Of a DNA stretch of 64,000 nt, positions 1,562 through 51,796 are shown one piece after another. The stretch covers positions 186,001 through 250,000 of the forward strand of contig JARKQJ010000091.1 of the NCBI GenBank assembly GCA_029973955.1, given 5' to 3'. A program made the position numbers and the translations under genes. This stretch comes from Paludibaculum sp. (lineage in GTDB: Bacteria > Acidobacteriota > Terriglobia > Bryobacterales > Bryobacteraceae). Position 1 is the first letter of the stretch; the number at the start of each line of letters is the position of its first letter. The notes under the pieces were generated by a model that was not told the DNA's origin, ran no database searches, and worked only from the letters and a program-made list of their open reading frames with translations.

Positions 1562-4500
1562 ATGATTGCGCAGAAGGGTGCATCCGGGATGAGCCGCGGT
1601 GCCTGGGGTTGGGGGCTGAAGCGGGCGGTAGTGGAGCGGCGGTTTGGGAGCGCGGTGTTCGCGGGTAGGGCGGCAAGCGGCCGTGAGGGCCGGAGTCCGG
1701 CGGATGAGGCCAATCCGAAACTGGCAGTCACGTCTACGGATCGGCGCGCCGAATCGATTGCATCAAGGCGCACCGCCAGCTTTTCAATCATCTTCTGCTG
1801 GCTGTGGCTCATCGGCCTGTTCGTATGTGGTTCATCGCCGCTTCTGGCCACCGGCGGGAGTATCCAGGCGGTTAACCTTTCGTGTCAAGTGTACGGTCAG
1901 TCGGTTCAATGGGCCCTCAATGCGGGGGAAGTCAAATACTGCGATCCGGGAAGTTTTTCCGTCACGGTTTTGCGATCGTCGGCCGGGTCGGCCCCCTACA
2001 ACTTCTACCTCACTACTCCCACTGGTTCGACTCTCTCAGTTTTGGGGAGTTCGGCACTTTACGAGACATTTTCATCCTTGACGAATTACGGCTCTTATAC
2101 AGCGCGCGTGGATACGGGGGCTACCTTCACCTTTACTGTGGTTCGTCTGGTACTTTGCACCAGTTACAGTTTGTCCGGCGCAGGTCTTCCCGGGCCGATT
2201 CCAGGAGCGGGCAGCAGCGGAACATTGACTGTCACCCCGGTTCCCGCTGGCTGCAATGAGTACTGGAGCCCTTCGAGCAACCAGTCGTGGTTCACCTTCG
2301 CGGCTGGTTCCGGCGGCCGCGGGAATGGATCCGCCAACTGGACGGCAGCAGCTAACCCTGGTCCAGGCACAAGGAACGCAACGATAACGGTATCTGCAAG
2401 CACCAGCAGCACGATGGCGGTCACACAGTCTCCACCTTCCACCGCTTGTACCTATACCATCTCGAATCCCGGGACGATCAGCGCCGACGGAAATGGGGGG
2501 CCCGGGCAGGTCGGCACCATTACAGGAACTCCTGCCGGCTGCACGGGGAGCTGGACGGTTGCCAGCAATCAACCCTGGCTGACGGTTTCCGGTTCCGGGA
2601 GCGGGCCTGGACCCTCCAGCTTCTCCTGGAGCGCAGCGGTGAACCGAACGGCGCAGAGCAGGACGGCAACAGTCACGGCGGGAGGGGCTTCCAGTATTTG
2701 GACGCAGGTTGGTGCGCCTGCCTGCATTCCTGACAATTACCTCTTTTCGAATTTCACACCCGCAGGGCCAATTCCCGCCACAGGGGGCGCTGGAACCATC
2801 TTCGTGTCCGCCCAGCCGCATCCCTGTTCCACACAATGGACAGCCTCATCGAGTCAACCTTCCTGGCTGACTGTTTCGGGATCGGGTCTTGGCGATACGG
2901 GGACAACGGTGAGTTGGTCGGCTTCCGCCAACCCGACAGCTTCGACCCGCACTGCGAATATCATCGTTGGAACCACTTCCTACGCGGTGACACAGGCTCC
3001 AAACGCCGCTTGCACCAGCGTGACGTTGTCGGGCCCGTCCAGTATTCCCTACACCGCAGGTTCCGGGACAATTACCGTCACTGTTGCCCCATCCGGTTGT
3101 CTTTGGACGTCGTCGAGCAATCAGTCCTGGTTTCGCGCTGCCGGTTCCGGCAGCGGGAACGGATCCATCGCCTGGTCGGCCGACGCCAATCCCTCGGCTT
3201 CCACGCGCAGCGCCACGGTGACGGCAGGTCCTGGCTCGCTCACGATTACCCAACAGGCCGCCCCGGTTCCCAGTTGCAGTTCGCTCACCCTCAGCAACCC
3301 CAGCCCCATCGCATATGGCGGCGATTCGGGAACCATCACCGTGACGGCCTCTCCTTCTCCCTGCACGCTGAGTTGGGTGCCGCAGAGCAGTCAAAGCTGG
3401 TTGAGGGTTTCCGGCAGCGGGAATGGAAGCGGGTCATTTGGCTGGGTGGCCGATGCCAATCCTTCTGCCTCCCAGCGGACCGCCACCATCACCGTGGGCA
3501 GCACGACAATCACGGTCACGCAACAGGCTCTTCTGCCTCCTCCCGACTGTGTCTCCGTCACCCTGAGCAACCCCAGCCCCATTGCGTATGGCGGCGGATC
3601 TGGAACCATCACTGTCACCGCTTCGCCTTCCCCATGCGTCCTGCTGTGGACGCCGGAGAGCAGTCAGAGCTGGCTGGCGGTTTCAGGCAGCGGGAGCGCC
3701 AGCGGTTCCTTCACCTGGGCGGCCAGCGCCAATCCGGGCACGACGCAGAGGACGGCCACCGTGACGGTGGGCAGCACGACCATCACCGTCACGCAGCAGC
3801 CTGCCCCGCCCCGTGACTGCACATCCCTTGCCTTGAGTAACCCCAGCCCCATCTCAAAGGACGGCGGATCCGGGGTCATCTCGGTCAGCGGCGCGCCTGC
3901 CGGATGCACCCTGGCCTGGACACCGTCCAGCAACCAAGGCTGGTTCCGAGTCACCGGCAACGGCAACGGCAGCGGCTCCTTTACCTGGGTGGCCGATGCC
4001 AATCCCACCTCCTCATCACGCGTCGCAATCGTGACGGTGGGCACTGCAACAATTACGATCACTCAGGATTCCACCACCTTTGTGTGCACGTCCTTTATCC
4101 TCAGCAATCCCGGCACAATCGCGAAGGAAGGTGGTTCCGGCCTGATCACGGTGACTGGAACTCCCATTGGCTGCCTGTTGAGTTGGGTGCCGGCGAGCGA
4201 CGCCGCCCAGACCTGGTTTAGGGTTTCGGGCAGCGGCAACGGCAGCGGCTCCTTTACTTGGACGGCAGATCCAAATCCGGGGGCCAACAGCCGGAGTTCC
4301 ACGATTACGGTGGGCACTGCCACGCTGGTTGTGACGCAAGCGGGCACGCCAACGGCCACGTGCAATCAGTTTCTCTTCAGTGGTGGGACGCAGGCTGCTC
4401 CGGAGGGGCAGACGCTCACGATCGGCGTGACTCCGCAGCCCAGCGGGTGCACCACGGTGTGGTCCCCGCAGTTGAGTCCCAGCCTGTCATGGGCAACCAT

Positions 4501-7500
4501 CGTGTCGGGCGGCGGGACTGGAGCGGGCAGCGTGCGCGTCCAGTTCCAGCCGAATGCGACGGGATCGCAGCGCGGCACTCTGCTGATTGTGGGGTCGAGT
4601 TCGGTGTCGCTGTCGCAGGGTACGCAGCCCTGCGTGCTGACGCTGGGCGGACCGTCGCCGGCATCACTTCCGGCCGCGGGCGGACCCGGGACGATCAACG
4701 TGACGGTGACGCCCACAGGCTGCGCGCTGCCATATGCGGTTTCCGCGAACGATGCCTGGCTGCTGCTGCAAACCGCATCGGGCGTGGGGAGCGGAACCAT
4801 CACTTACAAGGCGCAGGCCAACAATACGACCGCGGCGCGCTCCACCGTGATTACCGCCGGTGGACGGACGGCTGCCATCCAGCAGGATGCGCCGAAGGCG
4901 GCGGATTGCGTGGATTACCAGTTGAGTGTGGGGGGGCCGGCCGGCCAGGCCGGCTTCGTACCGAATGCCGGCGGAACAGGCACCGTGACGGTGCGGGGCA
5001 CGCCCGGCGGCTGCCAGACCGCCTGGACGGCCACCTCAAATTCCGGGTGGCTGGAGATCTCCGGGAGTTCGACGGGGCAGGCTCTATCCAGGACGACCCA
5101 CCTGACGCTGCGCTCGGGCCGGTCAGTTGCGGCGGCCCAGGGCCAGGGGGACGGCAGCTTTGTCTACAGCGTGACGAGCGCCAATCCCGGACCGGGCAAG
5201 CGGGTGGCTTATGTGTCCGTCAACGGCCGGGCATTGGCGATCGAGCAGGATGCGCCGCCGCCGGCGCCTTTGTCGATGGTGACCAGTTCGCTCCCTTCGG
5301 GCATGGTGGGCCGGGCCTACTCGGCACAATTGCAGGTGACTGGCGGAACCGCGCCCTATGTCTTCAGCGCCACGAATCTGCCGGCCGGGTTGAGGCTGGG
5401 CAGCAATTCAGGGTTAGTGGAGGGCACGCCGGAGTTGGCGGGGATCAGCAGCGTGACCTTCCGCGTGACCGACAGCGGCGTGCCGGCGCAGTCGCTCAGC
5501 CGCGCGTTTGGGATTGAGATCAGCGAAGTGCCGTGCACGTTTGAACTGACGCCGGCGCAGGTCCGGGCCGGTTCCCTGGCGGAGACGGCGACCCTGCAAC
5601 TGACTGCATCCCAGCGTAACTGCGCCTGGGTGGGAGAGGGGCTGCCTGGATGGGTGAATCTGGACCCCGCCAGCGGATCCGGCAGCGCTTCGGTGAAGCT
5701 CGGGCTACAGCCGAACATGGCGCTGCAGGCCAGGCAGGCGTCGATCCGCATTGCAGGCCAGGCGGTGAGCGTCGAGCAGGCGGCAGCCAGTGTGGCGCCG
5801 CCGCTGGTGGTCTCTCCGCAGAGCCTCTACACCAAGTTGCGTCAGGGCGAGAAGCAGCAGTTGTCCCTCAGCGTTCTGAGCGGCACCGCGCAAGCCGAGA
5901 TCGCCTATGCGGCCTCTCTGCCGGCCGCGCCCCGCTGGCTGAGTCTGGCGTCCGCGGGTTCGCGGACACCGTCAGCGATCAACTTGAGTATTGACGCCGC
6001 GGGGCTCACTCCGGGACGCTACCAGGCGCGGGTGACAGTCTCGGCCCCAGGGGCCGATCCCGCGCTGCGGCAGGTGGACCTGACGATCGATGTCGATCCG
6101 CTGCAGCCGGCCAAGCTCTCGGCCCTGCCGGCGGCTGTGTTGCTGGGCGGCCGGGAGGGCACCGAACTGCAGCACCAGAATCTGGTTCTGGAGAATGTCG
6201 GCGAACAGGGCTTGTCATATTCCGCGCAGCCCTTGTCCGATTGGATCCAACTCGGTGATCAGGGCAGCGTGCAAGGCGACCTTCAGGCCAGGGGCCGTGT
6301 CACCGTCCCAATGATCGTGGATGTCAGCAAGCTGCCCGCCGGCGCCTACCGAAGCTCGATCCGGCTGACCAGCGCCACAACGCTTCAATCGATCGACATT
6401 CCCGTGGCGGTGGTCCTGGCCGCGGTGGAAAAGCCGCGTCTCGACCTCTCGCAGCAGGGGCTCACCATGCTGACCGGGACCGAGTTCACGAAAGACATGC
6501 TCACCGTGCCGGTGGGTGTGCTCAACACGGGGGCCGGCACGCTGACATGGACCGCCTCTACCGGCACGCCCTGGTTGCGGCTGGTGAACCCCTCGGGCGA
6601 GGCGGTGGCGAACTCGAACAACATCCGGCGGTTTGAGGTTGGGTTCAATACGTCGGAGGTGAACAAGTTGGGCGCCGGCCGCTATGAGGGAGCGGTCCGG
6701 GTGGATTCGCCGGAGGGCGGTAGCCGGGACTTGAAGGTGACTCTGGACAAGCGGGGCGCCTATCAACTGCCCTTTACCGTGGCTCCGACCGGCCTCGTGT
6801 TTGTGTCCGAGGAAGGGGGCGTTCCGCCGGCTAGTCAGGAGGTGAAAGTCTACAGCCGGTCTTTGACGCGCGACCTGCAGGTGAGCGTCACGCAGGCGGC
6901 CTGGATTGAGCCGGCGATGAAGTCGTTCACGCTGAAAAGTGGCGCAGAGGCCGCCGTTCGGTTTGACGTGAAGGGGAGTACTTCGAATCCCGGCACCTAC
7001 CGGGACGCCGTGCGGATTTCCGCGGACGGGCAGACGGTGGAAGTCCAGGTCGCCTGGATGATCGTGCCCCGCGGTACCCTGACTTCCTTGAGTTGTAGCA
7101 CTGCGCCCCCCGTGGCCGCCCTGACCAGTCTTCCATCGGATTTCGTCATCTCGGCCGGAGATCCAATCCAGCTTGTGGCCACCGCACTGGATGGCTGTGG
7201 CAGCCCGCTGACCGAAGGCTCCGTGGTGGCTTCGTTCTCCAATGGCGACAGTCCGTTGGGGCTGCGTCCCATCGGCGATGGAGCCTGGGAAGGAACATGG
7301 GTGCCGAAACGCGACGCCGCGGACCGCGTGGTGGTTCGCGTGATCGCCTCGGCCGCCGGGGCCGGTGACAAGCCGCCGGAGGCGGCGGAGGGCTTTAGCG
7401 TGGCCGGGATTCTGCAGCCCAACATCGCCACGCCGGCGATCGAGGATAACGGTGTCGTCAACCTTGCCTCGCCCGGAGAGAGTGGCGCTCCGCTGGCGCC

Positions 7501-8185
7501 GGGTACCTGGGTGACGATCAACGGTTTGAACCTGGCGAATGCGCCGACGAATGCGGACGGCAATCCGCTGCCGTCTCGGCTTGGCGAGACCTCCGTGAGC
7601 TTTGGCGGCCGCGAGTTGCCTCTGCTGCAGGTCAATTCCGCCCAGGTGCTAGCGCAGTTGCCCTACGATGCCGACTCAGGCCTGACCTCGCAACTCGTGG
7701 TCCGGCGCGGACAGAGCGCCAGCGCGCCGGAATCGGTGGCCATCGCCTCCAGCACGCCGCGCGTCTTCACCACGGACGGCTCAGGTCAGGGGCAGGGAGT
7801 GATCGTGGATGCTGCCACCGGCCTGCTGGCGGGCGACGACAGCCCGTTGTCGGCCGGGCAACGCGTCTACATCTATGCCGCTGGACTGGGCGCCGTCACA
7901 CCGCTGATCGAGGCGGGATCGGCAGCGCCTCCCGACGCCCTGCCCAGCGTCGTCAATCCGGTGCGTGTTCTCTTTGACGGGATTCCGGCGCAAGTGGAAT
8001 CCGCCGTCCTTGCCTCTTCCGACCTGCAAGGCGCGGAGAAGTGGCTGGAGCGGCTGAGACCCGCCTATGTCGGCATCTATCGCATCACTGCCATCGTGCC
8101 CGAGGGGCTGACGCCGGGCACGGTGCGCATGCTCGTAGTGTCGGGCGAGGCGAGAAGCCTGCCCATTTCCCTGAGACTCCAATGA
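1562..8185 (+). CDS. Giant secreted BACON-repeat / putative-Ig protein with TIGR03437 C-terminal domain
   Basis: A 2207-aa predicted surface or secreted protein. I chose the ATG at 1562 because AAAGGAGA sits 5-6 nt upstream; a GTG at 1532 in the same frame lacks this. About 75 basic residues precede a hydrophobic segment (SIIFCWLWLIGLFVCGSSPL), giving an unusually long pre-signal region. From about residue 199 eleven consecutive BACON-like beta repeats of about 90 residues follow, each of the pattern C..LS.P..I...GGSGTITV...P.GC...W...SNQSW...SGSG....W.A.ANP...R.ATITV....VTQ. Then come one He_PIG domain (about 1240-1325), a twelfth shorter Cys-paired repeat, several Ig-like segments, and a C-terminal TIGR03437-type domain (about 1955-2207, VNLASPGESG ... 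LGAVTPLIEAG). BACON domains are proposed to bind glycans or mucin. Its stop is followed at once by a small outer-membrane barrel gene. The glycan-binding role is inference. Confidence 0.85.
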   Translation: MIAQKGASGMSRGAWGWGLKRAVVERRFGSAVFAGRAASGREGRSPADEANPKLAVTSTDRRAESIASRRTASFSIIFCWLWLIGLFVCGSSPLLATGGSIQAVNLSCQVYGQSVQWALNAGEVKYCDPGSFSVTVLRSSAGSAPYNFYLTTPTGSTLSVLGSSALYETFSSLTNYGSYTARVDTGATFTFTVVRLVLCTSYSLSGAGLPGPIPGAGSSGTLTVTPVPAGCNEYWSPSSNQSWFTFAAGSGGRGNGSANWTAAANPGPGTRNATITVSASTSSTMAVTQSPPSTACTYTISNPGTISADGNGGPGQVGTITGTPAGCTGSWTVASNQPWLTVSGSGSGPGPSSFSWSAAVNRTAQSRTATVTAGGASSIWTQVGAPACIPDNYLFSNFTPAGPIPATGGAGTIFVSAQPHPCSTQWTASSSQPSWLTVSGSGLGDTGTTVSWSASANPTASTRTANIIVGTTSYAVTQAPNAACTSVTLSGPSSIPYTAGSGTITVTVAPSGCLWTSSSNQSWFRAAGSGSGNGSIAWSADANPSASTRSATVTAGPGSLTITQQAAPVPSCSSLTLSNPSPIAYGGDSGTITVTASPSPCTLSWVPQSSQSWLRVSGSGNGSGSFGWVADANPSASQRTATITVGSTTITVTQQALLPPPDCVSVTLSNPSPIAYGGGSGTITVTASPSPCVLLWTPESSQSWLAVSGSGSASGSFTWAASANPGTTQRTATVTVGSTTITVTQQPAPPRDCTSLALSNPSPISKDGGSGVISVSGAPAGCTLAWTPSSNQGWFRVTGNGNGSGSFTWVADANPTSSSRVAIVTVGTATITITQDSTTFVCTSFILSNPGTIAKEGGSGLITVTGTPIGCLLSWVPASDAAQTWFRVSGSGNGSGSFTWTADPNPGANSRSSTITVGTATLVVTQAGTPTATCNQFLFSGGTQAAPEGQTLTIGVTPQPSGCTTVWSPQLSPSLSWATIVSGGGTGAGSVRVQFQPNATGSQRGTLLIVGSSSVSLSQGTQPCVLTLGGPSPASLPAAGGPGTINVTVTPTGCALPYAVSANDAWLLLQTASGVGSGTITYKAQANNTTAARSTVITAGGRTAAIQQDAPKAADCVDYQLSVGGPAGQAGFVPNAGGTGTVTVRGTPGGCQTAWTATSNSGWLEISGSSTGQALSRTTHLTLRSGRSVAAAQGQGDGSFVYSVTSANPGPGKRVAYVSVNGRALAIEQDAPPPAPLSMVTSSLPSGMVGRAYSAQLQVTGGTAPYVFSATNLPAGLRLGSNSGLVEGTPELAGISSVTFRVTDSGVPAQSLSRAFGIEISEVPCTFELTPAQVRAGSLAETATLQLTASQRNCAWVGEGLPGWVNLDPASGSGSASVKLGLQPNMALQARQASIRIAGQAVSVEQAAASVAPPLVVSPQSLYTKLRQGEKQQLSLSVLSGTAQAEIAYAASLPAAPRWLSLASAGSRTPSAINLSIDAAGLTPGRYQARVTVSAPGADPALRQVDLTIDVDPLQPAKLSALPAAVLLGGREGTELQHQNLVLENVGEQGLSYSAQPLSDWIQLGDQGSVQGDLQARGRVTVPMIVDVSKLPAGAYRSSIRLTSATTLQSIDIPVAVVLAAVEKPRLDLSQQGLTMLTGTEFTKDMLTVPVGVLNTGAGTLTWTASTGTPWLRLVNPSGEAVANSNNIRRFEVGFNTSEVNKLGAGRYEGAVRVDSPEGGSRDLKVTLDKRGAYQLPFTVAPTGLVFVSEEGGVPPASQEVKVYSRSLTRDLQVSVTQAAWIEPAMKSFTLKSGAEAAVRFDVKGSTSNPGTYRDAVRISADGQTVEVQVAWMIVPRGTLTSLSCSTAPPVAALTSLPSDFVISAGDPIQLVATALDGCGSPLTEGSVVASFSNGDSPLGLRPIGDGAWEGTWVPKRDAADRVVVRVIASAAGAGDKPPEAAEGFSVAGILQPNIATPAIEDNGVVNLASPGESGAPLAPGTWVTINGLNLANAPTNADGNPLPSRLGETSVSFGGRELPLLQVNSAQVLAQLPYDADSGLTSQLVVRRGQSASAPESVAIASSTPRVFTTDGSGQGQGVIVDAATGLLAGDDSPLSAGQRVYIYAAGLGAVTPLIEAGSAAPPDALPSVVNPVRVLFDGIPAQVESAVLASSDLQGAEKWLERLRPAYVGIYRITAIVPEGLTPGTVRMLVVSGEARSLPISLRLQ
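2156..5270 (+). repeat. Array of eleven in-frame BACON-like coding repeats
   Basis: Each repeat unit is about 260-290 nt and opens with a Cys codon. A second Cys lies about 27-30 residues later, in the P-x-G-C or P-x-P-C context. Neighbouring units are also similar as DNA: the stretch around AGCAACCCCAGCCCCAT recurs near 3293, 3566 and 3837, and units 5-7 are the closest, which points to recent tandem duplication there. The outer units are more diverged. Confidence 0.85.
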
Positions 8186-8205: not shown

Positions 8206-8841
8206 ATGTTCCGCATCCTCCAACTCTCTCTGCTCGCTCTCACGCTCAGTGCGACATGCCCCTGTTTGTACGCCGCGGATGCCCCCAGCGTCCGCAAGGA
8301 TGTCTTTGAATTTGGCGCCTTCGTGGGCTCGAACTTCGCTCCCGGACAGAACGGCGCCAACTTCGACGGCTTCCGCGCGATGGGAGGCGGCAATGTAACC
8401 TACTCCATTCACAAGTGGGTGCTGCCGTACTTTGAGTACGGCTACTTTCCGGAAGTGGCCGGCAGCTTCCGGCCCGAAGGTGCCACTCGCCGCATCGACT
8501 ACACGAACACGATTCATGACTTCCACGGCGGTGTCCACCTGCGTACCGATCCGATTCCGGGCACCGGCCTAGTCCCCTATGCGGTGATCGGGTTCGGCGG
8601 GGTCCACACGAGCTTTACCGGCACAGAGTTCTACGACAACGGGAGCGAGGCTACTCTGCCGAAGGAATCGGCGATGCTGCCGTGTTTCAATGTGGGCGGA
8701 GGCCTTCGCTACTACTTCAACGAGAATTTCGGCATCCGCGGCGAGATGAAGTTCTATCGGCCTTTCAATGGAACAGACCGGCTCACGCAGGGCTTCGGGA
8801 AGGTCGAATTCGGCATCTTCTGGCAGAAGAAGGTGAAGTAG
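8206..8841 (+). CDS. Small outer-membrane beta-barrel protein (OmpA/OmpW-like size), coupled to the giant BACON gene
   Basis: A 211-aa protein with a Sec signal (MFRILQLSLLALTLSATCPC, then LYAADA) followed by alternating amphipathic beta strands rich in Gly and aromatic residues, as expected for an eight-stranded barrel. The family match is to generic outer-membrane beta-barrel proteins. I prefer the ATG at 8206, which puts the signal peptide first and has AAGGTGA at 8188-8194. An in-frame ATG at 8182 overlaps the preceding stop as ATGA and is an alternative. Either way the gene is tightly linked to the giant secreted protein. A similar barrel follows the second TIGR03437 protein at 51140, so it may anchor, secrete or fold that partner (inference). 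Confidence 0.8.
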   Translation: MFRILQLSLLALTLSATCPCLYAADAPSVRKDVFEFGAFVGSNFAPGQNGANFDGFRAMGGGNVTYSIHKWVLPYFEYGYFPEVAGSFRPEGATRRIDYTNTIHDFHGGVHLRTDPIPGTGLVPYAVIGFGGVHTSFTGTEFYDNGSEATLPKESAMLPCFNVGGGLRYYFNENFGIRGEMKFYRPFNGTDRLTQGFGKVEFGIFWQKKVK

Positions 8842-9513: not shown

Positions 9514-11070
9514 ATGAGTCTGATGAGCCGCTGTGCGTTACCCTTGCTGCTCTTCTCCATAGTGACCTTGGGCCAACCGGCCCAAAGCCCTTCGAAGCCC
9601 CCGCGCTATGCGCTTGTAATTGGGCAGTCCGCCTACCGTAACCTCGAACCGCTGGGAGCCATCGGGGCGGAGGTGGCCGTCGTGGGCGAAGCACTGCGCG
9701 CAGCCGGATTCAAGGTGAGCGTCGCTGCGAATCTCGATTTGGAAGGCCTCCGGCTGGATAGCCCTACGAAGGGGCCGCTTCAGCAGTTCCTGGCGGACCT
9801 TCCCCCCGGCGCGGTCGTCTGCCTATACTACGCGGGCTACGCAGCCGTCGATTCCAACGAGGAGAGTTTCCTGCTGCCGGTTACCACAGCCGGGGTCAGC
9901 CGTGATGCGGCCGGCAGTGTTTACGCCACGGATGGCTTGAGCCTGTCGTATCTGCTGGCATCTTTGAGTGAGCGAAAGCCCGCCTTCGTGCTCATGTGGC
10001 TGGATGCTCCCTGGGCGAGCGCAAAGCTCGGGATCAGTGCCGGGCTCACTGCCATCCAGATGGCAGATCCGCTACCTATGTCCGTTTCGGTGCTGTTCTC
10101 GCATCGCTGGCATCAGTCTGTCGCCTGGGACCCCTCCTGGTCAGTCAGCCCGTTCGCCGAGTCGCTGGCGGCGGCGCTCCAACAGCCGGGACTCGAGGTC
10201 GGGCAGATTCAGGACCGGGTAAAGCAAAATACGATCCGCATCAGTAAGGACCGGCTGGCTCCATCAGAGGGATTCTCGCGGATCATGTCCACTCTCTACA
10301 TCCGCGAGCCGGAGGCTCCCAAGCCGGCGGGGCCAAAACCTGGTGATACCAAAGAAGTGCGCAAGATGGAGTACGTCCTGCTGCCGCCCGGCACTTTCCA
10401 CATGGGGTGTGTGGATGGTGACGCGGCCTGCAAAGCCGATGAGAAGCCGGCCGCCGAGGTCACCATTACAAAGCCATTCTGGATCGCCGTGACGGAAACC
10501 ACATTCCAGTCGTTCCGTGAATTCGAGCGAGCCACGGATTCGCGCCTGGCGAAGAGGACGGACACGAACGAAGGCGGCAAGCAGCATCAGAACCCTGTCA
10601 GCAAGGTCAGTTGGTCCGCTGCCCAGGACTACTGCCGGTGGGCCGGGGGACGCCTCCCCACTGAGGCCGAATGGGAGTACGCGGCGCGGGGCGGCAAACC
10701 GGCCGCCGCCTACCCATGGGGCAGCCAGATTACTCACGACAACGCCAATTACGCGAAAGCCGACTCGAAGACAAAGGACGTATACGGAACTGAAACCGCG
10801 CCGTTGCGGACGTTTGATGCCAACGGCTTCGGCCTCTTCGACATGGCGGGCAACGTGCAAGAGTGGGTTGCGGACTGGTACGGACCGCTCGATCCGGCGC
10901 GGAAGAACGACCCGCAGGGGCCGGCCGCCGGGGAGCGCCGCGTGGTGAAAGGCGGCAGTTTCAATTCGGACTCCGCCGCCTTGCGCGTCTCCGCCAGGGG
11001 CCAGCAAAAGCCGGATGATAAGGACAACCAAACCGGGTTCCGGTGCGTGCTGCCGGCAGAACTGCCGTAG
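9514..11070 (+). CDS. Exported pseudo-caspase (C14-like) fused to an FGE-sulfatase-like domain
   Basis: 518 aa. A Sec signal (CALPLLLFSIVTLGQ) is followed by a caspase-like fold at about residues 30-240: YALVIGQSAYRN, then CLYYAGYAAV, then FVLMWLDAPWAS, then SPFAESLAAALQQPGLEVGQ. The family catalytic pair is normally YAGH(G) and LDAC(R). Here the His position is Tyr109 and the Cys position is Pro166, so protease activity is not expected. Residues about 285-518 are an FGE-sulfatase (SUMF1-like) domain (LLPPGTFHMGC, GGRLPTEAEWEYAARGG, FDMAGNVQEWVADWYG, RVVKGGSF). It lacks the paired Cys of true formylglycine-generating enzyme after GGSF, so it is probably a binding or scaffold domain. Starts at 9505 (GTG), 9514 and 9523 are all possible; I used 9514 because of the -10 box 9 nt upstream. 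Confidence 0.82.
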   Translation: MSLMSRCALPLLLFSIVTLGQPAQSPSKPPRYALVIGQSAYRNLEPLGAIGAEVAVVGEALRAAGFKVSVAANLDLEGLRLDSPTKGPLQQFLADLPPGAVVCLYYAGYAAVDSNEESFLLPVTTAGVSRDAAGSVYATDGLSLSYLLASLSERKPAFVLMWLDAPWASAKLGISAGLTAIQMADPLPMSVSVLFSHRWHQSVAWDPSWSVSPFAESLAAALQQPGLEVGQIQDRVKQNTIRISKDRLAPSEGFSRIMSTLYIREPEAPKPAGPKPGDTKEVRKMEYVLLPPGTFHMGCVDGDAACKADEKPAAEVTITKPFWIAVTETTFQSFREFERATDSRLAKRTDTNEGGKQHQNPVSKVSWSAAQDYCRWAGGRLPTEAEWEYAARGGKPAAAYPWGSQITHDNANYAKADSKTKDVYGTETAPLRTFDANGFGLFDMAGNVQEWVADWYGPLDPARKNDPQGPAAGERRVVKGGSFNSDSAALRVSARGQQKPDDKDNQTGFRCVLPAELP

Positions 11071-11614: not shown

Positions 11615-11656
11615 GATTCAAGGCCGCTTGCGCGGCGCGTCCAGGAAGGTACCCAG

Positions 11657-13755: not shown

Positions 13756-14990
<1,235 letters not shown>

Positions 14991-40254: not shown

Positions 40255-40712
40255 GCGCCTTTCTGATCTCTGCCGCACTTCTGGTCGGCATCGCGGCCTG
40301 TGTCACCGACCTCCGCAACCGGACTGTCCCCAACTGGATCTCCGGGCTAGCTCTGGTGGCCGGAGTGGGTTATCACCTCGCCACCGCCGGATGGCGCGGA
40401 ATGGTCTTTTCGGCCAGCGCCGCGGCCTGTGGTTTCGCTGTGTTTCTTCCGTTCTATCTGCTGGGGGGCATCGGTGCAGGAGACGTGAAATTGACGGCTG
40501 GTTTCGGAGCGCTGCTGGGACTGCCCGGCTTGTGGCAGGCCGTCCTCTGGACGTGCCTGATGGGAGGGCTGGCGGCCGCGATGCTGGTTTACTGGCGGCG
40601 GCTGAAGCGGCTCCCCGCGGAACAGACCGCTGAAGTGTTCAAGAGTGACGCCATTCCCTATGCTCCGGCCATTGCCGCAGGCGCCTGGATGGCGATGTGG
40701 GTGAGGTCATGA
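40251..40712 (+). CDS. cpaA: Flp-type prepilin peptidase (CpaA / TadV)
   Basis: 153 aa, the usual size for the short A24 peptidases of Tad systems. It has about five transmembrane helices. The two catalytic Asp are in ACVTDLRNRTVPNW and in GGIGAGDVKLTAG (GxGD motif). AGGAGGCGAGG precedes the ATG. It cleaves the leader of Flp pilins and pseudopilins at the inner membrane. Its substrates are not visible in the window. Confidence 0.9.
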   Translation: MSAFLISAALLVGIAACVTDLRNRTVPNWISGLALVAGVGYHLATAGWRGMVFSASAAACGFAVFLPFYLLGGIGAGDVKLTAGFGALLGLPGLWQAVLWTCLMGGLAAAMLVYWRRLKRLPAEQTAEVFKSDAIPYAPAIAAGAWMAMWVRS

Positions 40713-40764: not shown

Positions 40765-41688
40765 ATGGACCGCAGGTTTTTGACAGTTCTCGGGGTAAGC
40801 CTGGTGTTTGCGCTGGTCGTCAGCGCCGTGTTCTACCAGATGTCCTCGAAGGCCGGCTCGACGCCCAAACAGGCCGAGTCCACCGATCTCAAGGATCTGG
40901 TCATAGCCGTGCGGCCGCTGCCCGTGGGCCTGACCGTCAAGGCGGCGGATGTGAAGGTTGTGAAGGTCCCGGGCCAGGCGTTCCCCAAGGGCGCCTTCAG
41001 CAAGCCGGAAGACGTCCTGGACCGGCCGGTGATCTCGACGATTCTGGCTGAGGAGCCTATGACGGACGGCCGCCTGGCGCAGCGCGGCAGCGGCGTCGGT
41101 CTGGCTCCCGTCATTCCTGTCGGGATGCGCGCCGTTACGGTGCGCGTCAATGACGTAGTCGGCGTCGCCGGCTTCGTCCTGCCCGGGATGCGAGTCGACG
41201 TCCTTATCACGGGCAATCCTCCCGGCAACCCCACCATGGTCACCAAGACCGTGCTCCAGAATATCCTCGTTCTCTCCGCCGGACAGACGCTGCAGACCGA
41301 CGGCGCCGGCAAGCCGGTGAACGCTCCCAATGTGACCGTGCTGGTCACTCCGCAGCAGGCGGAACTGCTTACTTTGGCCGGCAACGAGGGCCGCATTCAG
41401 TTGGTGCTGAGAAATGGCGGAGATCAGGGCATCGAGAAGACGGAAGGCTTGAGCCTGGCCGCCCTGTACGGTTCGCACTCCAAGCGGGACGTCAACCCCG
41501 GCTCAAACGCCGAGCCCCGTCCCGTTCGCCGCCGCGAGCCGGTGGCCGTGGCGCCCGTGGCGTTGGCGGCCCCCACACCGCCGCCCGCTCCCGTGCCCGA
41601 TCAGATCATCACGATCCGCGGGATCGACAAGAAAGTGGAGACCGTCGCCTCCAAAAAGAACTCTGAGGACACCGGGAGGAACCCGTGA
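40765..41688 (+). CDS. cpaB: Flp pilus assembly protein CpaB / RcpC
   Basis: 307 aa. One N-terminal membrane helix (FLTVLGVSLVFALVVSAVFY) precedes a SAF-like domain (DLVIAVRPLPVGLTVKAADV ... PVISTILAEEPMTDGRL) and the RcpC/CpaB core (GMRAVTVRVNDVVGVAGFVL, PGMRVDVLI, VTVLVTPQQAELLTLA). The C-terminus is a Pro/Ala-rich tail. The start at 40765 has AGGAGG with a 6-nt spacing; an overlapping ATG at 40761 is in the wrong frame. It is a periplasmic stabiliser of the pilus secretin. The stop overlaps the GTG of cpaC. Confidence 0.92.
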   Translation: MDRRFLTVLGVSLVFALVVSAVFYQMSSKAGSTPKQAESTDLKDLVIAVRPLPVGLTVKAADVKVVKVPGQAFPKGAFSKPEDVLDRPVISTILAEEPMTDGRLAQRGSGVGLAPVIPVGMRAVTVRVNDVVGVAGFVLPGMRVDVLITGNPPGNPTMVTKTVLQNILVLSAGQTLQTDGAGKPVNAPNVTVLVTPQQAELLTLAGNEGRIQLVLRNGGDQGIEKTEGLSLAALYGSHSKRDVNPGSNAEPRPVRRREPVAVAPVALAAPTPPPAPVPDQIITIRGIDKKVETVASKKNSEDTGRNP

Positions 41689-43103
41689 ACTTAAGCAAAT
41701 CATCACTGCTAGCTTGCGCGATTCTGATCCTGGCTCCCCTGGTGCAAGCCCAAACCGGAGCCACGGATGAGATCAAAGTCACGCTGGGAAAGAGTGTGGT
41801 GATCGACTATCCGGAAGATGTCAGCCGCATCTCGACATCAAATCCTGAAATCGTCGATTACGTGCCCGTCTCTACCCGCGAGATCCTGCTGCATGCCAAA
41901 GGCGTAGGCTCAGCGACACTTGTCGTGTGGGCCAAGTCCGGCCAGCGGAATTTCTACACGGTCAACGTCGAGCTGAACCTCGAGCCCGTCCGCAAGATGC
42001 TGAGAGAAACCTTTCCCAGCGAGCAGATCCAGTTGCTGGCGGCCAGGGACTCTCTGTCTCTGACGGGCGTGGTGTCCAGCCAGGTGGTGGCAGACCGGGT
42101 CATGACTCTGCTGCAACCCGTCAGCAAGAGCATCGTCTCCAATCTGAAGGTCAAGGCGCCGCCGGCCGACAAACAGATCCTGCTGCGTGTGAAGTTCGCC
42201 GAGTTGAACCGCAATTTCTCCAACCAGTTCGGTGTCAACCTGATCTCCACCGGCGCTTTGAACACGCCAGGCCTTGTTTCCACCCAGCAGTTCGGAGCCG
42301 CCAGGCCCTCCAACGTGAGTGGCACGATTCCCGGTGGCGCCGCCGGAACCACCTCCAATTTCAACCTCACTGATGCCCTCAACATTTTTGCGTTCCGTCC
42401 CGACCTGAACCTGGCCGCTGTCGTCAAGTTGATGCAGCAGGAGGGCTTCCTCCAGATCCTGGCGGAGCCCAACCTCGTCACCAGCAACGGCAAGGAAGCC
42501 AGCTTCCTGGTGGGCGGTGAGTTCCCCGTCCCAGTTCTGCAGGGCGGCGGTAACGCCGGCTCGGTGACGGTCCAGTTCCGCGAGTTCGGTATCCGGCTCA
42601 CGTTCCTGCCGGCTCTCACCGAGAACAACACCCTCAAAATGTACGTTAAGCCCGAGGTCTCCACCATCGATCTCGCCAACGCCGTCTCCATCAGCGGCTT
42701 TACCATTCCCGCCTTGGCGACGCGCCGTGTCGAATCCAACATCGAACTCGGAGCAGGGCAGAGCTTCCTCATCGGCGGCCTGATCGATGACCGCACCAAC
42801 GAGACCTTTGCCAAGATCCCTGGGCTCTCGAGCATCCCGCTGTTGGGCCAGCTCTTCAAGAGCCGCAACGAAACCCGGGCCAAGACGGAGCTGATCGTCA
42901 TGGTGACTCCCGAAATCGTCGAACCGCTGGCCGCGGGCGATCCCAAGCTCAATCCGCACCTTCCAGGTGAGTTCCTCCGGCCGATGATGCTGCCGGAGGG
43001 CGTGCCGGGCTCATCCAACGTGGGTGCTGGTACTCCGCGCACCAAAGGACAGGCCGCGACCTCCAAGAAGGATGCTTTCCAGCGCATACCGGCAGTCAAG
43101 TAA
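41685..43103 (+). CDS. cpaC: Tad/Flp outer-membrane secretin CpaC / RcpA
   Basis: 472 aa. The GTG start overlaps the cpaB stop (GTGA). Signal SSLLACAILILAPLVQAQ. The N-terminal T2SS/T3SS-secretin pilus domain is EIKVTLGKSVVIDYPEDVSRI. A BON-like segment follows (LSLTGVVSSQVVADRVMTLL). The secretin core shows QILAEPNLVTSNGKEASFLVGG, then VQFREFGIRLTFLP, and ends with KTELIVMVTPEIV. It would form the outer-membrane pore for the pilus. Confidence 0.94.
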   Translation: MNLSKSSLLACAILILAPLVQAQTGATDEIKVTLGKSVVIDYPEDVSRISTSNPEIVDYVPVSTREILLHAKGVGSATLVVWAKSGQRNFYTVNVELNLEPVRKMLRETFPSEQIQLLAARDSLSLTGVVSSQVVADRVMTLLQPVSKSIVSNLKVKAPPADKQILLRVKFAELNRNFSNQFGVNLISTGALNTPGLVSTQQFGAARPSNVSGTIPGGAAGTTSNFNLTDALNIFAFRPDLNLAAVVKLMQQEGFLQILAEPNLVTSNGKEASFLVGGEFPVPVLQGGGNAGSVTVQFREFGIRLTFLPALTENNTLKMYVKPEVSTIDLANAVSISGFTIPALATRRVESNIELGAGQSFLIGGLIDDRTNETFAKIPGLSSIPLLGQLFKSRNETRAKTELIVMVTPEIVEPLAAGDPKLNPHLPGEFLRPMMLPEGVPGSSNVGAGTPRTKGQAATSKKDAFQRIPAVK

Positions 43104-43153
43104 GGCAGAGAGAGCCGTAGTTTGGCACTCCCCAGCGAGGTGCTTCTCCCAGG

Positions 43154-44362
43154 ATGAATTCGAAGAGCCCAAAACGTGAACCCGCTCTGATTGCTCTGCT
43201 CGTGGCGGAAGACCGGGAGTTGGCTCAACAGGTAACCCAGGCCATGGCCGCCACCCGGGAGTTCGAGATCCTCTCCGATCTCCGGACTTATCCTTCCGAA
43301 CAGACTCTCGAGATCCGCCTCCGGCAGATCCAGCCAGATGTTGTTCTGGTTGACTTCGTGAGCAATCTGCAGGCGGCCGAGAGCCTCACCAGGCTGGTGA
43401 CCACGCTATACCCCAAGGCGCGCGTCATCGGCCTGCACCGCGAGAGCGATCCGGAGGCGCTCATCCGCATCCTGAGATCGGGCGCCAGTGAGTTTCTATG
43501 CGCGCCGTTCGAGCCGATGGCCCAGAGCGAGGCCGCTTTGAGGATCAGGCGCCTGCGCGAACCCGATTCCAAGGATCCGCAGGATCTGGGACGGCTGGTC
43601 GTGTGGGCCAGCACAAAACCCGGATCCGGCTCCACCACGCTCGCCACCCAGTGTGCCTTCGCCTTGAAGCGGCTTACCGGACAGCGCGTCCTGCTCATCG
43701 ATCTCGACCTGTTCAGCGGTTCCATCGCCTTCTCGTTGAAGCTCAGCCCGACCAGTAATGTGCTGGACGCGCTGGCCCAGTCCGACCAGATGGATGCCAC
43801 CACCTGGTCGTCGTTGGTTGCGAGCGCGTATGGCATCGACGTCCTCCCAGCCCCGGATCATGCCGGTGGCGACGACGTCGAGTTCAGCCGGGTCCGCGAG
43901 GTCGTGGAGTATGCCCGCACCCGGTACGACTGGATCGTGATCGATCTGCCGACCGTCTTCCATCGCCTGAGCCTGTTTGCCCTCTCCGAATCAGACCAGG
44001 CTTACCTGGTCTCGACGGCGGAACTGCCCAGCCTCCACCTGGCTCGCCGGGCCGTGGCCATGCTGCGGCAGCTCGGCTACGACAAGGACCGGTTCCAGAT
44101 GATCGTCAACCGGCTCAACAAGCGGACGGAAATTACCATGGCCGACATGCAGCGCATCTTCGCCTGCCCGGTCTATGCCACTTTGCCAAACGACTATCAG
44201 TCGCTGCACAAAGTGGTGACCAGCGCGGAAGCCCTTTCGCCGGAAGGCGAACTGGGACGCGCCATCGGCCAGATCGCGAGCAAGCTGGGGGGGGTCGTGC
44301 ACACCGAGAAGAACGGAAACCCTAGGGTGCTGGAAACCAACGCGGTGCTCTCTGAGGGCTGA
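43154..44362 (+). CDS. cpaE: Tad pilus localisation ATPase-like protein CpaE / TadZ
   Basis: 402 aa. The N-terminal about 130 residues are receiver-like (ALIALLVAEDRELAQQVTQA ... QPDVVLVDFV ... LRSGASEFLCAPFEP). The ParA/MinD-like domain starts near residue 150. Its P-loop reads STKPGSGSTTLATQ: the signature Lys before the loop is kept, but the usual GK[ST] Lys is Ser, so ATP hydrolysis may be impaired, as reported for some TadZ proteins. VLLIDLDLFSGSIAFSLKL and WIVIDLPTVFH are the A' and B motifs. It places the pilus apparatus at its cellular site. Confidence 0.9.
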   Translation: MNSKSPKREPALIALLVAEDRELAQQVTQAMAATREFEILSDLRTYPSEQTLEIRLRQIQPDVVLVDFVSNLQAAESLTRLVTTLYPKARVIGLHRESDPEALIRILRSGASEFLCAPFEPMAQSEAALRIRRLREPDSKDPQDLGRLVVWASTKPGSGSTTLATQCAFALKRLTGQRVLLIDLDLFSGSIAFSLKLSPTSNVLDALAQSDQMDATTWSSLVASAYGIDVLPAPDHAGGDDVEFSRVREVVEYARTRYDWIVIDLPTVFHRLSLFALSESDQAYLVSTAELPSLHLARRAVAMLRQLGYDKDRFQMIVNRLNKRTEITMADMQRIFACPVYATLPNDYQSLHKVVTSAEALSPEGELGRAIGQIASKLGGVVHTEKNGNPRVLETNAVLSEG

Positions 44363-44451
44363 TGGGGTCTCAAGTTTTTCACTGAGGACGCCGATGAATA
44401 TGCAGCGGGCAACAGGCACCGCATGAATTTGAGGTCAGGACGAGAAGCGCA

Positions 44452-45813
44452 ATGATTCCGACGATGGATCAGAAACCGGTGCAACAGCTCAGTTGGGAGC
44501 AAAGGCTGCTGAAAAATGCGGGGCGGCCCAAGTCTTCCCTGAAGCCTGAGTACCAGGAGCTGAAATTCACGCTCCACCGGAAACTGCTCGACAAGATCAA
44601 CCTGGAAGCGCTGGCCACAATCGACAACCAGCGCGTGCGCGGCGAAGTCCGACAGGCCCTGATCTCGCTCATCGACAGCGAGCCGACGCTGCTCAGCGCG
44701 CTGGAAAAACAGCAGATCTGCGACGAGGTCCTCGACGAAGTCTTCGGTCTCGGCCCGCTGGAGCCGCTCCTGCAGGACCCCACCATCTCCGATATCCTCG
44801 TCAACGGCAGCAAACAGGTCTACGTCGAACGCAAGGGCCTGCTGGAGTTGACCAGCGTCACGTTCCGGGATGACGCCCACCTGCTGCGCATCATCGACAA
44901 GATCGTGAGCCAGGTGGGACGCCGCGTCGACGAGTCGAACCCCATGGTCGACGCCCGCCTGCTCGACGGCAGCCGCGTCAACGCCATCATCCCGCCGCTC
45001 GCCCTCGATGGGCCGCTGATGTCGATCCGCCGTTTCTCTCAGGACAAGCTGATGCCGGCCGATCTGGTGGAACGCAAGGCGATGACCCGCGGCATGATGG
45101 AGCTGCTCGAGGCGGCCGTCAAGGCCCACTTGAACATCATCATCATCGGCGGCACCGGCGCCGGTAAAACCACGCTGTTGAACGGCCTGTCCTTCTTCAT
45201 TAACCCCAAAGAACGCATCATCACCATCGAGGACGCCGCCGAATTGCAATTGAAGCAGCCGCACGTGGCGCGTCTCGAAACCCGCCCCCCCAACCTGGAG
45301 GGGCATGGCGCCATCCGCCAGCGCGAACTCCTGATCAATAGCCTGCGTATGCGTCCTGACCGCATCGTGGTCGGCGAAGTCCGCGGCCCCGAGGCCCTCG
45401 ACATGCTTCAGGCGATGAATACCGGCCACGACGGCTCGTTGACCACCATCCACGCCAACACCCCCCGTGACGGCGTCAGCCGCCTCGAAGTCATGGTCTC
45501 CCTGGCCAACGCCAGCATGCAGCTCATCTCCATCCGCCAGCAGATCGCCAGCGCCGTCCATGTCCTGGTCCAGGCCGCCCGATTGAGCGATGGCTCCCGC
45601 CGCGTCACCAACATCACCGAAGTGACGGGCATGGAAGGCGAGATGATCACCCTCCAGGACATCTTCGTCTTCGAAAAGCGGGGGCTTTCGCCGGAAGGCC
45701 GCGTCCTCGGACGCTTCGCCGCCACCGGCATCCGCCCCAAGTTCTACGAAAAACTCCTTGCCGCCGGCATCCGCCTGCGCCCGGACCTGTTCGACGAAGT
45801 GATGGAGGTCTGA
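44452..45813 (+). CDS. cpaF: Tad pilus secretion ATPase CpaF / TadA
   Basis: 453 aa. T2SSE/VirB11-type ATPase: an N-terminal domain with [20 protein letters not shown] and [20 protein letters not shown], the Walker [21 protein letters not shown] at about residue 235, the Asp box [11 protein letters not shown], the Walker [21 protein letters not shown] and the His box [13 protein letters not shown]. It is the cytosolic hexameric motor powering pilin assembly. It lies 4 nt from tadB. Confidence 0.95.
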
Positions 45814-45817
45814 GGCG

Positions 45818-46795
45818 ATGAACTTTCTACTGGTAGCAATCGGAATCTGGGTCTGCATCCTCGGCGCCTGGTGGGTGCTGACGAATGTGTTCAAGACCGC
45901 GGACTCGGGTAAACTGCGTGACCGGCTGATGGGTACCAGCCGCCCCTCGCGCCCCAAGAAGGGCGCGAAGCGGCCCGCGGCCTTGCTCGCCGAAGAAGAC
46001 AAGACCACCGGCCGGTTGGTTCTTCAACTGATGCACCGCTTTCAGTTGCAGGACAGGCTGGCCACTCTGCTCGAACAGGCCGGCCTGAAGTGGAAACCGG
46101 CGCGGCTCATCCATATGTGTCTCGCGCTGTTTCTGTGCGGCTTCGCCCTCGGCTGGCTCATGATGCCGGCGCGCTATCAGGCGCTCGCCATCCTGCCCGG
46201 GCTCTTCACCGGGAGCCTCCCGCTGCTCTTCGTCGTGCGGAAACGCGGCTCCCGCCTGCACAAGTTCGAGGAACAGTTCCCCGAAAGCCTCGAGTTCGTC
46301 GCCCGCTCCATGCGCGCCGGCCACGCCTTCTCGGTCTCTCTTGAAATGCTCAGCCGCGAGTTTCAGGAGCCTCTTGCCGGCGAATTCCGCCGCGCCTTTG
46401 AAGAGCATAACCTGGGCCTGCCGCTCGATACTGCCCTGCAGAAGCTGGCGCAAAGGGTGCCTTCTCTGGATGTCCACTTCTTTGTCTCCGCCGTCCTGCT
46501 TCAGAAGCGGACTGGCGGCAACCTGGCCGAGATTCTCGACAAACTCGCCTACGTCATCCGCGAACGGTTCAAGCTGCGCGGCAAGATCCGGGCCATCAGC
46601 GCCCACGGCCGTATGTCCGGCATCGCGCTCTCTTCCATCCCCGTCGCCGTGGCCGCCATCATGTTTGTCGTCAACCCGGACTATGTGACTTTCTTCGTCC
46701 GTGAGGAGGTCGGCAATTACATGGCTCTGGCCGGGATTGCCCTCCAGCTCATCGGCTACGGAATTATCAAAAAGATCGTGACGATCGAGGTATAG
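45818..46795 (+). CDS. tadB: Tad pilus inner-membrane platform protein TadB
   Basis: 325 aa. An N-terminal helix, a cytosolic segment, then the T2SSF domain (FEEQFPESLEFVARSMRAGH, AQRVPSLDVHFFVSAVLLQK, TGGNLAEILDKLAYVIRERF), and two C-terminal helices (IPVAVAAIMFVVNPDYVTFF, LAGIALQLIGYGIIKKIV). With TadC it forms the inner-membrane platform acted on by CpaF. It sits directly behind cpaF in the operon. Confidence 0.94.
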   Translation: MNFLLVAIGIWVCILGAWWVLTNVFKTADSGKLRDRLMGTSRPSRPKKGAKRPAALLAEEDKTTGRLVLQLMHRFQLQDRLATLLEQAGLKWKPARLIHMCLALFLCGFALGWLMMPARYQALAILPGLFTGSLPLLFVVRKRGSRLHKFEEQFPESLEFVARSMRAGHAFSVSLEMLSREFQEPLAGEFRRAFEEHNLGLPLDTALQKLAQRVPSLDVHFFVSAVLLQKRTGGNLAEILDKLAYVIRERFKLRGKIRAISAHGRMSGIALSSIPVAVAAIMFVVNPDYVTFFVREEVGNYMALAGIALQLIGYGIIKKIVTIEV

Positions 46796-46812
46796 GCGCA
46801 CAGGAACCCACA

Positions 46813-47730
46813 ATGACACTTCTTTTCAGTGTTCTGATCTTCCTGGGCATCGCATTGGGCGGCGCAATGCTGGGGCTCAAGCTCTGGGTTCGCCCCAAAG
46901 AGGCGATGGAGCGCGTCACCGGCGTCAATCTGGAACAGGAAGAAACTCCAGCCCATCCGAGCCTGGTCTTCCGGGACATGTTGAACCGGCTGGGGACGAT
47001 GGTCCCCGCCTCCCCGAAAGACATGACCGTGATGCAGAAGCGCCTGATGCGCGCCGGCATCCGCGGACCCAATGCACTGAAGGTCCTCTATGGCGCCAAG
47101 GTCGTGCTCGCCGTCCTCCTTCCCTTGGTCATGCTGATCGCCGTCTGGGGCTCGGCCACCGAGTTCTTCAACAAGATGACCGCCGTCCTGGCGGCCGCCG
47201 GGCTGGGCTTCTTCGGGCCGAACGAATATGTCTCCCTGGCGAGCAAGAAGCGCCAGAAGGAGATTCGGCGCGGGTTGCCAAACTCCCTGGACCTGATGGT
47301 GGTTTGCGTGGAGTCCGGACTCGGGCTCGACCAGGCGATCCTGCAGGTGGCCAAGGAACTGGAGCACGCGCACCCGGAGATCAGCGAGGAGTTCGCCATG
47401 GTGAACCTCGAGCTGAAGGCCGGGAAACGCCGCGCCGAAGCGCTGAGGAACCTCGCCGAGCGCAGCGCCGTGGACGACCTCAAGAAACTGGTCGCCGTCC
47501 TCATCCAGGCAGACCGTTTCGGTACCGGTGTCGCGCAGAGTCTCCGCGCCCACGCCGACTTTATGCGCGTGCAGGCCCGCCAGGTGGCCGAGGAGAAGGC
47601 CGCCAAACTGGGCGTCAAGCTCGTGTTTCCGATTTTCTTTTGTATTTTGCCGTCACTCTTCGTGGTGACGGTTGGTCCTGTGGCTGTCAAGATCGTCCGG
47701 GAACTTATCCCGATGATGACTGGCGTGTGA
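46813..47730 (+). CDS. tadC: Tad pilus inner-membrane platform protein TadC
   Basis: 305 aa. A second T2SSF protein: KEIRRGLPNSLDLMVVCVES, GLGLDQAILQVAKELEHAHP, KLVAVLIQADRFGTGVAQSL and RVQARQVAEEKAAKLGVKLV, with C-terminal helices IFFCILPSLFVVTVGPVAV. It partners TadB. It is the last recognised Tad gene here. TadD, TadE/F/G and a Flp pilin are not found in the window. Confidence 0.94.
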   Translation: MTLLFSVLIFLGIALGGAMLGLKLWVRPKEAMERVTGVNLEQEETPAHPSLVFRDMLNRLGTMVPASPKDMTVMQKRLMRAGIRGPNALKVLYGAKVVLAVLLPLVMLIAVWGSATEFFNKMTAVLAAAGLGFFGPNEYVSLASKKRQKEIRRGLPNSLDLMVVCVESGLGLDQAILQVAKELEHAHPEISEEFAMVNLELKAGKRRAEALRNLAERSAVDDLKKLVAVLIQADRFGTGVAQSLRAHADFMRVQARQVAEEKAAKLGVKLVFPIFFCILPSLFVVTVGPVAVKIVRELIPMMTGV

Positions 47731-47798: not shown

Positions 47799-47900
47799 AT
47801 GGAATCCACTACGATCGTTCGAATCGTCTGCTCGGTGCTGGCTGTCGTCCTGCTGGGCGCCATCATCCTGCGCCGGAAGAGCCGCAACGCTGAGGAATAG
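47799..47900 (+). CDS. 33-aa single-pass membrane peptide at the end of the Tad operon
   Basis: ATG 47799, stop TAG 47898-47900. A very strong GAAAGAGGAG (47781-47790) lies 8 nt upstream. The peptide starts MESTTIVRIVCSVLAVVLL, continues GAIIL, and ends RRKSRNAEE: one transmembrane helix with a positive cytoplasmic-type tail, so probably N-out, C-in. Too short for a pilin, and it lacks a prepilin motif. It may be a small assembly or regulatory subunit of the Tad machine (inference). No family recognised. Confidence 0.65.
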   Translation: MESTTIVRIVCSVLAVVLLGAIILRRKSRNAEE

Positions 47901-51139: not shown

Positions 51140-51796
51140 ATGAAAGCCATGCCCTGTTTCAAACAATTCACGTTGATCGTGGGAGTCGGCATCCTGATCT
51201 CCACCGCGCCGGCCGCCCTCGGGCAGAAGTGGGAAGTCGGAGCCGGTGCCGGCGCTTCCCTCTACAACGCCCAGACCATCACCTCCGGTTCCACCTCCGT
51301 GGAGGCGAAGTTTAAGCCCGGCTACGGCTTCAGCGCCTTCGTCGGCCAGGTCGGTGACCGCTTGGGTGGTGAAGTCCGCTATACCTGGCTCTCCAATGAG
51401 ATGGAACTCTCCGGCGCTGGAAAGAACTTCACCATGGGCGGCCACACCCAGGCCATCCATTACGACGTCAATTTCTACTTCAACTCCCGCAAGTCGAAAA
51501 CACGGCCCTACCTGTTCGCCGGCGGCGGCATGAAGCAATACTCCGGCAAGGGACCCGCAACGGCCGTCCAGCCTCTCGGCAACATCGTCGTGCTCACCGA
51601 TACCAGTGAATGGAAACCTCTCATCTCCGGCGGCGGCGGCGTCCGTATCGCTGTCGGTGAAAAGGCCAGCCTCCGCGCCGAATTCCGCATGTACTTCACC
51701 CAGACCCCCACCAACGTCATCACGCCGGTCTCCGGCTCGCTCAGCGGCTGGTATTACAACTTCGTCCCCATGGTCAATCTCAGCTACGTCTGGTAG
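51140..51796 (+). CDS. Small outer-membrane beta-barrel protein paired with the TIGR03437 propeller protein
   Basis: 218 aa. Signal FKQFTLIVGVGILISTAPAA. The mature chain has amphipathic strands (WEVGAGAGASLYNAQTI, PGYGFSAFVGQVGDRLGGEV, AIHYDVNFYFN, RPYLFAGGGMKQYSG) and a terminal Trp (VNLSYVW), an outer-membrane sorting signal for BAM. This is generic OMP_b-brl architecture, eight strands likely. It follows the propeller gene by 97 nt, the same order as 1562/8206. A perfect 11-bp terminator follows. Confidence 0.82.
   Translation: MKAMPCFKQFTLIVGVGILISTAPAALGQKWEVGAGAGASLYNAQTITSGSTSVEAKFKPGYGFSAFVGQVGDRLGGEVRYTWLSNEMELSGAGKNFTMGGHTQAIHYDVNFYFNSRKSKTRPYLFAGGGMKQYSGKGPATAVQPLGNIVVLTDTSEWKPLISGGGGVRIAVGEKASLRAEFRMYFTQTPTNVITPVSGSLSGWYYNFVPMVNLSYVW

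Follow-up and report, generated by a model that had tools for sequence, protein, structure and literature searches.

A TIGR03437-tailed propeller protein and a small outer-membrane barrel accompany a Tad/Flp pilus operon in Bryobacterales

A 64,000-nucleotide stretch of the Paludibaculum sp. genome (contig JARKQJ010000091.1, positions 186,001 to 250,000; hereafter the window) encodes two large proteins with C-terminal TIGR03437 tails, P0001 and P0002, which are directly followed by the small barrel proteins P0003 (pair 1) and P0004 (pair 2), respectively. An earlier note on this DNA had read these pairs as copies of one two-gene module. We show that the two pairs are genuine but come from different systems, and that pair 2 is a conserved and old add-on, in soil-dwelling Acidobacteria, to the operon of a gripping (Tad/Flp) pilus, located at 38369-47730. 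Our analysis modestly favours the interpretation of pair 2 as an accessory surface module of the Bryobacterales Tad/Flp pilus, in which P0002 is docked by P0004.

The association of pair 2 with the Tad operon was assessed in 80 loci, which were the best 80 of 145 matches to the propeller part of P0002. In these loci tadC immediately preceded the P0002 ortholog in 64 of 78 cases and an intact barrel immediately followed it in 67 of 76; 52 loci had both neighbours. Of eight listed Tad components, one or more lay within the stretch read in 69/80. Relatives of P0004 were detected in 34 of 61 genomes, including that of the window, and among the matches listed 29 of 30 loci with such a relative had a TIGR03437 gene within 1.5 kb that also matched the propeller part of P0002. 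According to the gene calls in the window, tadC is the last gene of the operon and immediately precedes P0002. The operon contains the CpaF/TadA ATPase, TadB and TadC, as well as CpaB/RcpC, a secretin, a CpaE/TadZ-like ATPase and a prepilin peptidase, identifying it as a Tad/Flp locus. The genes of the operon and of pair 2 are as follows (aa, amino acids):

38369..39967, + strand: 532-aa membrane protein upstream in the operon (hydrophobic by eye; labelled in 51/80 loci; no Pfam or NCBIfam family matched)
40251..40712, + strand: prepilin peptidase (Peptidase_A24, 65.4 bits, cut-off 26.5)
40765..41688, + strand: CpaB/RcpC (RcpC 100.6 bits, cut-off 28.8; TIGR03177 204 bits, cut-off 71)
41685..43103, + strand: CpaC/RcpA-type secretin (Secretin 154 bits; pilus N-terminal region 60 bits)
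43154..44362, + strand: CpaE/TadZ-like ATPase (AAA_31 37.1 bits, cut-off 27)
44452..45813, + strand: CpaF/TadA ATPase (T2SSE 195 bits; best model TIGR03819 with 326 bits, under its own cut-off of 373)
45818..46795, + strand: TadB (T2SSF 58 bits)
46813..47730, + strand: TadC (T2SSF 72 bits)
47799..47900, + strand: predicted 33-aa single-span membrane microprotein, between tadC and P0002
48031..51042, + strand: P0002, large propeller protein with TIGR03437 tail (signal peptide by eye)
51140..51796, + strand: P0004, small outer-membrane beta-barrel of 218 aa (OMP_b-brl), with eight long strands in the model

P0002 and the barrel are retained together even when they lie apart, which is more than gene order alone predicts. 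Both genes were present in 33 of the 61 genomes and neither in 26; one genome, G024, which is 62% complete, had P0002 only, and one, G004, had only barrels, which are divergent. Presence of P0002 was scored at an expectation value (E) of 1e-150 or better, with G039 added from a contig-end fragment. Eight Tad-linked P0002 genes were first counted as barrel-less, of which one (locus L364, genome G068) was then moved to the broken-barrel category, the gene caller having missed a barrel in at least this locus. The L364 barrel lies directly behind P0002 in two pieces in different frames, indicating a broken gene or an assembly error, and G068 holds another P0002-barrel pair elsewhere. For the remaining seven genes, no trace of a barrel was found when up to 2.5 kb following P0002 (734 bases for L332) was searched in translation; six of these genes are in genomes with a strong barrel elsewhere. 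Five of these seven genomes carry a barrel apart from P0002 (E 4e-75 to 6e-83), four of the separated barrels being in one common context and one adjoining a gene that often follows the barrel; G066 contains another P0002-barrel pair, and G067 yielded a weak match only (E 5e-16).

The Tad link of propeller-tail genes is broader than pair 2. Of 20 regions around P0002-like genes, 14 contain a Tad cluster of a second type flanked by a divergent P0002-like propeller-tail gene; the other six contain no such cluster. When read to its end (L413 in the genome of the window, and L418), this type comprises a TPR lipoprotein-like gene, an Flp pilin, TadG-like and TadE/F-like genes, and CpaB to TadC; relatives of the 532-aa protein are also present in it. 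Among the genomes scanned for TadE, it was detected in 16 of the 17 that carry P0002 and in 5 of the 14 that do not. At pair 2 loci, a gene other than tadC was upstream of P0002 in 14 cases, and in 10 of these it was divergent and encoded a TIGR03437 protein of 631 to 771 aa. Proteins of approximately 770 aa with this tail are divergent to pair 2 copies away from tadC in L381 (6417-8723, - strand), L370, L374, L377 and others. InlB-type repeats were present in the two such TIGR03437 proteins tested, from L381 and from L363, where the gene is downstream of a pair.

Several observations weigh against the reading of pair 2 as an accessory surface module of the Tad pilus. Eleven of the 80 loci, some of them on short contigs, show no listed Tad component in the stretch read, and 10 of these 11 still have the barrel next to the P0002 ortholog. 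Searches with a motif and home-made profiles found neither an Flp pilin nor TadE/F/G next to the operon of the window, so that pilus building by this operon alone is at most putative; TadE matches do occur elsewhere in this genome (L413, L442). The propeller-tail genes of the second Tad type are without a barrel beside them, none being labelled in the 20 regions. No propeller gene was present in four TadE regions that were read irrespective of P0002; these include L445, a Tad locus that has the ATPase, TadB/C and a secretin. Finally, the co-variation of the barrel is not confined to P0002. Mirror-tree tests on 48, 48 and 44 loci, with the shared Tad signal removed, showed the barrel to correlate best with P0002 in the second half of the tail (r 0.46, with 0/2000 permutations as high), with values of 0.38 for the P0002 Ig (immunoglobulin-like) part and 0.05 for the second-propeller block. 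The barrel also co-varied with CpaC (0.36) and with the cytoplasmic CpaE (0.32), again with 0/2000 permutations as high. Thus, the tail-barrel co-variation is not specific and is no demonstration of contact.

The predicted structure of P0002 consists of a beta-propeller (residues ~22-358), an Ig-like domain (~368-460), a second beta-propeller (~463-770) and the TIGR03437 tail (~776-1003). Both propellers are complete in this model, and the tail is probably formed of two TIG-like Ig domains. Two cysteines, C376 in the Ig domain and C823 in the tail, are conserved in 54/54 orthologs and were the only cysteine columns found at a threshold of at least 10 of 54 orthologs. P0004 was modelled as a barrel of eight long strands with a predicted local distance difference test score of 94. 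The top matches in a fold comparison were small barrels, the best being 9nh2, a barrel of a type IV secretion machine, at 14% identity, while a profile search of solved structures with P0004 returned nothing up to E 1. Exporter barrels of autotransporter and two-partner systems have 12-16 strands and pass a large protein. This assignment was rejected for P0004 on the basis of its eight long strands, its length and the lower rank of autotransporter barrels among the fold matches (template modelling scores, TM-scores, ≤0.35).

In the mechanism that we propose, P0002 would exit the cytoplasm via its signal peptide and would function extracellularly as the large surface protein dedicated to this Tad machine. 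The two propellers may serve as binding heads and the Ig domain plus TIGR03437 tail as a stalk, with P0004 in the outer membrane holding or positioning P0002 there, near the CpaC secretin. The data show the genes and their predicted folds, the operon and how conserved it is, and the joint retention of P0002 and P0004 even when separated; we infer a surface location, a role in adhesion and a physical contact of P0002 with P0004 or the pilus. Docking by P0004 is the leading, as yet unproven, mechanism. A more ambitious proposal would be that Bryobacterales possess a novel type of display system linked to Tad. In it, the barrel would dock the TIGR03437/Ig module of the double-propeller protein at the outer membrane beside the secretin, the microprotein would modulate the TadB/TadC platform, and tailed proteins encoded elsewhere in the genome would share this dock. 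We regard this full combination as improbable.

The microprotein travels with tadC and not with the barrel. A single-span open reading frame (ORF), mostly of 29-34 aa, was present in all 64 tadC-propeller gaps (three were printed with a longer upstream start), with a ribosome-binding motif before it in 61. These gaps ranged from 198 to 510 bp, with one of 1640 bp. Residues R8, C11, R25 and R26 were invariant across 16 aligned sequences, and the differences by codon position among 67 sequences (0.32/0.10/0.56) were as expected for a coding ORF. Comparison with Pfam gave nothing better than E 0.08. Among 22 other loci the microprotein was present in L344, L354, L106, L108 and L367 and not in the other 17, and it was likewise not seen in L413-L441, a set that covers the second Tad type. 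Annotation pipelines may overlook a 33-aa ORF because of its size.

We also examined the earlier note's proposal that TIGR03437 tails and small barrels form a general sorting or anchoring system. All four genes described in that note were present where it had placed them, and the N-terminal parts of the two large proteins are, as it stated, unrelated, being a BACON array in P0001 and a propeller in P0002. The Tad operon, the microprotein and the caspase/FGE gene at 9514-11070 were not part of that note. Against a curated cut-off of 29.05 bits, the TIGR03437 match scored 129 in P0001 (residues 1966-2201) and 148 in P0002 (residues 780-997). P0004 is above the OMP_b-brl cut-off of 28.7 bits (37.1) and P0003 below it (17.6), and P0003 matched a P0004-family profile that was built without it (E 9.6e-8). 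The two genes of pair 1 are 20 bp apart, or overlap by 4 bp with the alternative P0003 start at 8182, and those of pair 2 are 97 bp apart. The genome of the window has 32 TIGR03437 matches, corresponding to ~30 tail genes, and six OMP_b-brl matches, five above the cut-off, of which only P0004 adjoins a tail gene; P0003 is additional to these. A rough, post hoc estimate that assumes 5,923 genes gave p ~5e-4 for two of these seven barrels being directly behind a tail gene by chance.

The wider survey covered 167 unique TIGR03437 genes: 30 from the genome of the window, 77 from loci L121-L191, 31 from genomes G006/G007 and 29 from four f3 genomes. The window-genome sample consisted of 30 loci among the matches listed, with 30 each taken likewise for G006/G007 and f3, and L121-L191 derived from the best-scoring 75 matches listed, of which 71 were read, one was inside a region already read and three were left out. 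Barrels were detected with a home-made gene caller, the P0004-family profile and Pfam. The next gene was in hand for 152 of the tail genes and was on the same strand for 88, of which 47 (complete, 100-330 aa) were run against Pfam, with OMP_b-brl matching four. A small barrel came next in only 4/152 cases, namely P0001, P0002 and its orthologs in G006 and G007, and in 1/149 when P0002 orthologs were removed; among the 30 window-genome loci, both window genes were the only ones with a barrel directly behind. General enrichment, the check proposed in the earlier note, was rejected on the basis of this survey. TIGR03437 matches were present in 59 of the 61 genomes, and nine of these (G038, G040-G043, G045-G048) had 7 to 49 matches each with no P0004 relative at E≤1e-5. 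A tree of 103 tails that passed a length filter, with rows outside it dropped and a bootstrap that had not settled, placed 20 P0002 tails in one clade (100/100) and clustered three P0001-type tails with a tail that has no adjoining barrel (99/98). The barrel-adjoining tails are therefore not one clade. A shared unit of TIGR03437 protein and small barrel is thus upheld for pair 2, where it is old and co-inherited, and fails as a general rule.

These data bear on three alternatives to the docking of P0002 by P0004. A tail that acts as a general sorting or anchoring signal, with small barrels as receptors, could explain why each window tail has a neighbouring barrel and why, for the barrel, co-variation is strongest with the second tail half of P0002, and the barrels apart from P0002 in five genomes mean that a single barrel could serve several proteins. 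The scarcity of barrels behind tails, the nine tail-rich genomes without a P0004 relative, the absence of a single clade of barrel-linked tails in the tree and the likewise permutation-supported co-variation with CpaC and CpaE make this reading improbable. A stronger, if still unlikely, contender is that P0004 is a structural part of the Tad outer-membrane pore bound to CpaC and that P0002 is a separate Tad product, the two being neighbours because both serve Tad. The co-variation with CpaC, the best fold match to a small barrel from type IV secretion and the separated barrels are consistent with this role, whereas the persistence of the barrel beside P0002 in 10 of the 11 loci without Tad genes in the stretch read argues against it.

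Alternatively, the barrel and propeller protein may be merely co-regulated envelope proteins in a conserved order, with no physical partnership. P0004-family barrels do also adjoin unrelated genes, and the P0002-P0004 contact is one that we only infer. This explanation is just as improbable as the first, as gene order alone does not predict that 33 of 61 genomes keep both genes and only one genome has either gene by itself, or that the barrel is kept in six of the seven genomes where adjacency was lost.

We compared the P0002-P0004 module with the known systems closest to it. In type IX secretion, the C-terminal sorting domains are Ig-like and are carried by large secreted proteins. P0002 shares this layout but differs in that P0004 is far under the PorG cut-off (20.9 versus 130 bits) and that P0002 retains its tail in loci without a barrel. 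P0001 and P0002 are clear members of the TIGR03437 (Soli_cterm) paralogous domain family; the model carries no function, and the present data link one group of its members to Tad loci. Our literature search returned no paper on TIGR03437 or Soli_cterm, none on Solibacter with a Tad pilus and no assigned role for TIGR03437, and we did not find a Tad operon with the three additional parts described. As in other Tad/Flp (type IVc) pilus loci, the prepilin peptidase, CpaB, CpaC-type secretin, CpaE, CpaF, TadB and TadC are in one operon; the differences are the double-propeller TIGR03437 protein, the outer-membrane barrel and the 33-aa microprotein. The word ‘propeller’ is absent from two Tad papers (PMC12075869 and PMC10499894), the first of which describes the Myxococcus Tad tips as minor pilins. 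PilY1 of type IVa pili is a soluble protein with a type I signal peptide and a modified beta-propeller that is tied to the pilus machine (PMC7541494). P0002 is likewise a secreted propeller protein tied to a pilus machine but has two propellers, an Ig domain and a TIGR03437 tail, and is linked to Tad rather than to type IVa pili; no PilY1 family was among its five Pfam families at E≤0.1, in what was a sequence test only. TIGR03437 proteins are abundant in these Acidobacteria; linking one old group to Tad pili provides a testable function, and three parts, including a 33-aa protein, would be added to a widespread pilus machine.

Pair 1 is part of a separate caspase/FGE neighbourhood with its own barrel subfamily, which in the window comprises:

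1562..8185, + strand: P0001, BACON/Ig-repeat protein with TIGR03437 tail (start codon uncertain)
8206..8841, + strand: P0003, small barrel of the other subfamily (alternative start 8182)
9514..11070, + strand: caspase (Peptidase_C14, 34.7 bits, cut-off 21.4) fused to an FGE-sulfatase domain (191 bits), with a signal peptide by eye

P0003-type barrels were found in 12 of 399 genomes of the class at E≤1e-15, including that of the window. The ten strongest loci had an FGE gene nearby in seven cases and a TIGR03437 gene in four (the window, L072, L433 and L437). A caspase part was detectable in the window, L072, L435 and L436, and the FGE part alone matched in L434, L437 and L438. In L072, from another family, the caspase/FGE gene (10152-13847, - strand), barrel and TIGR03437 protein adjoin as in the window, in a different order; L074 is at a contig edge. 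This neighbourhood of caspase/FGE, barrel and Ig-repeat protein probably belongs to the cell envelope.

Downstream of pair 2, at 52731-55630 on the + strand, a multi-haem cytochrome with paired CXXCH motifs is followed by a 657-aa protein without a Pfam family. The cytochrome was labelled in 12 and the 657-aa protein in 28 of the 80 pair 2 loci, the gene caller having sometimes missed the cytochrome, and the two could be an electron-transfer pair.
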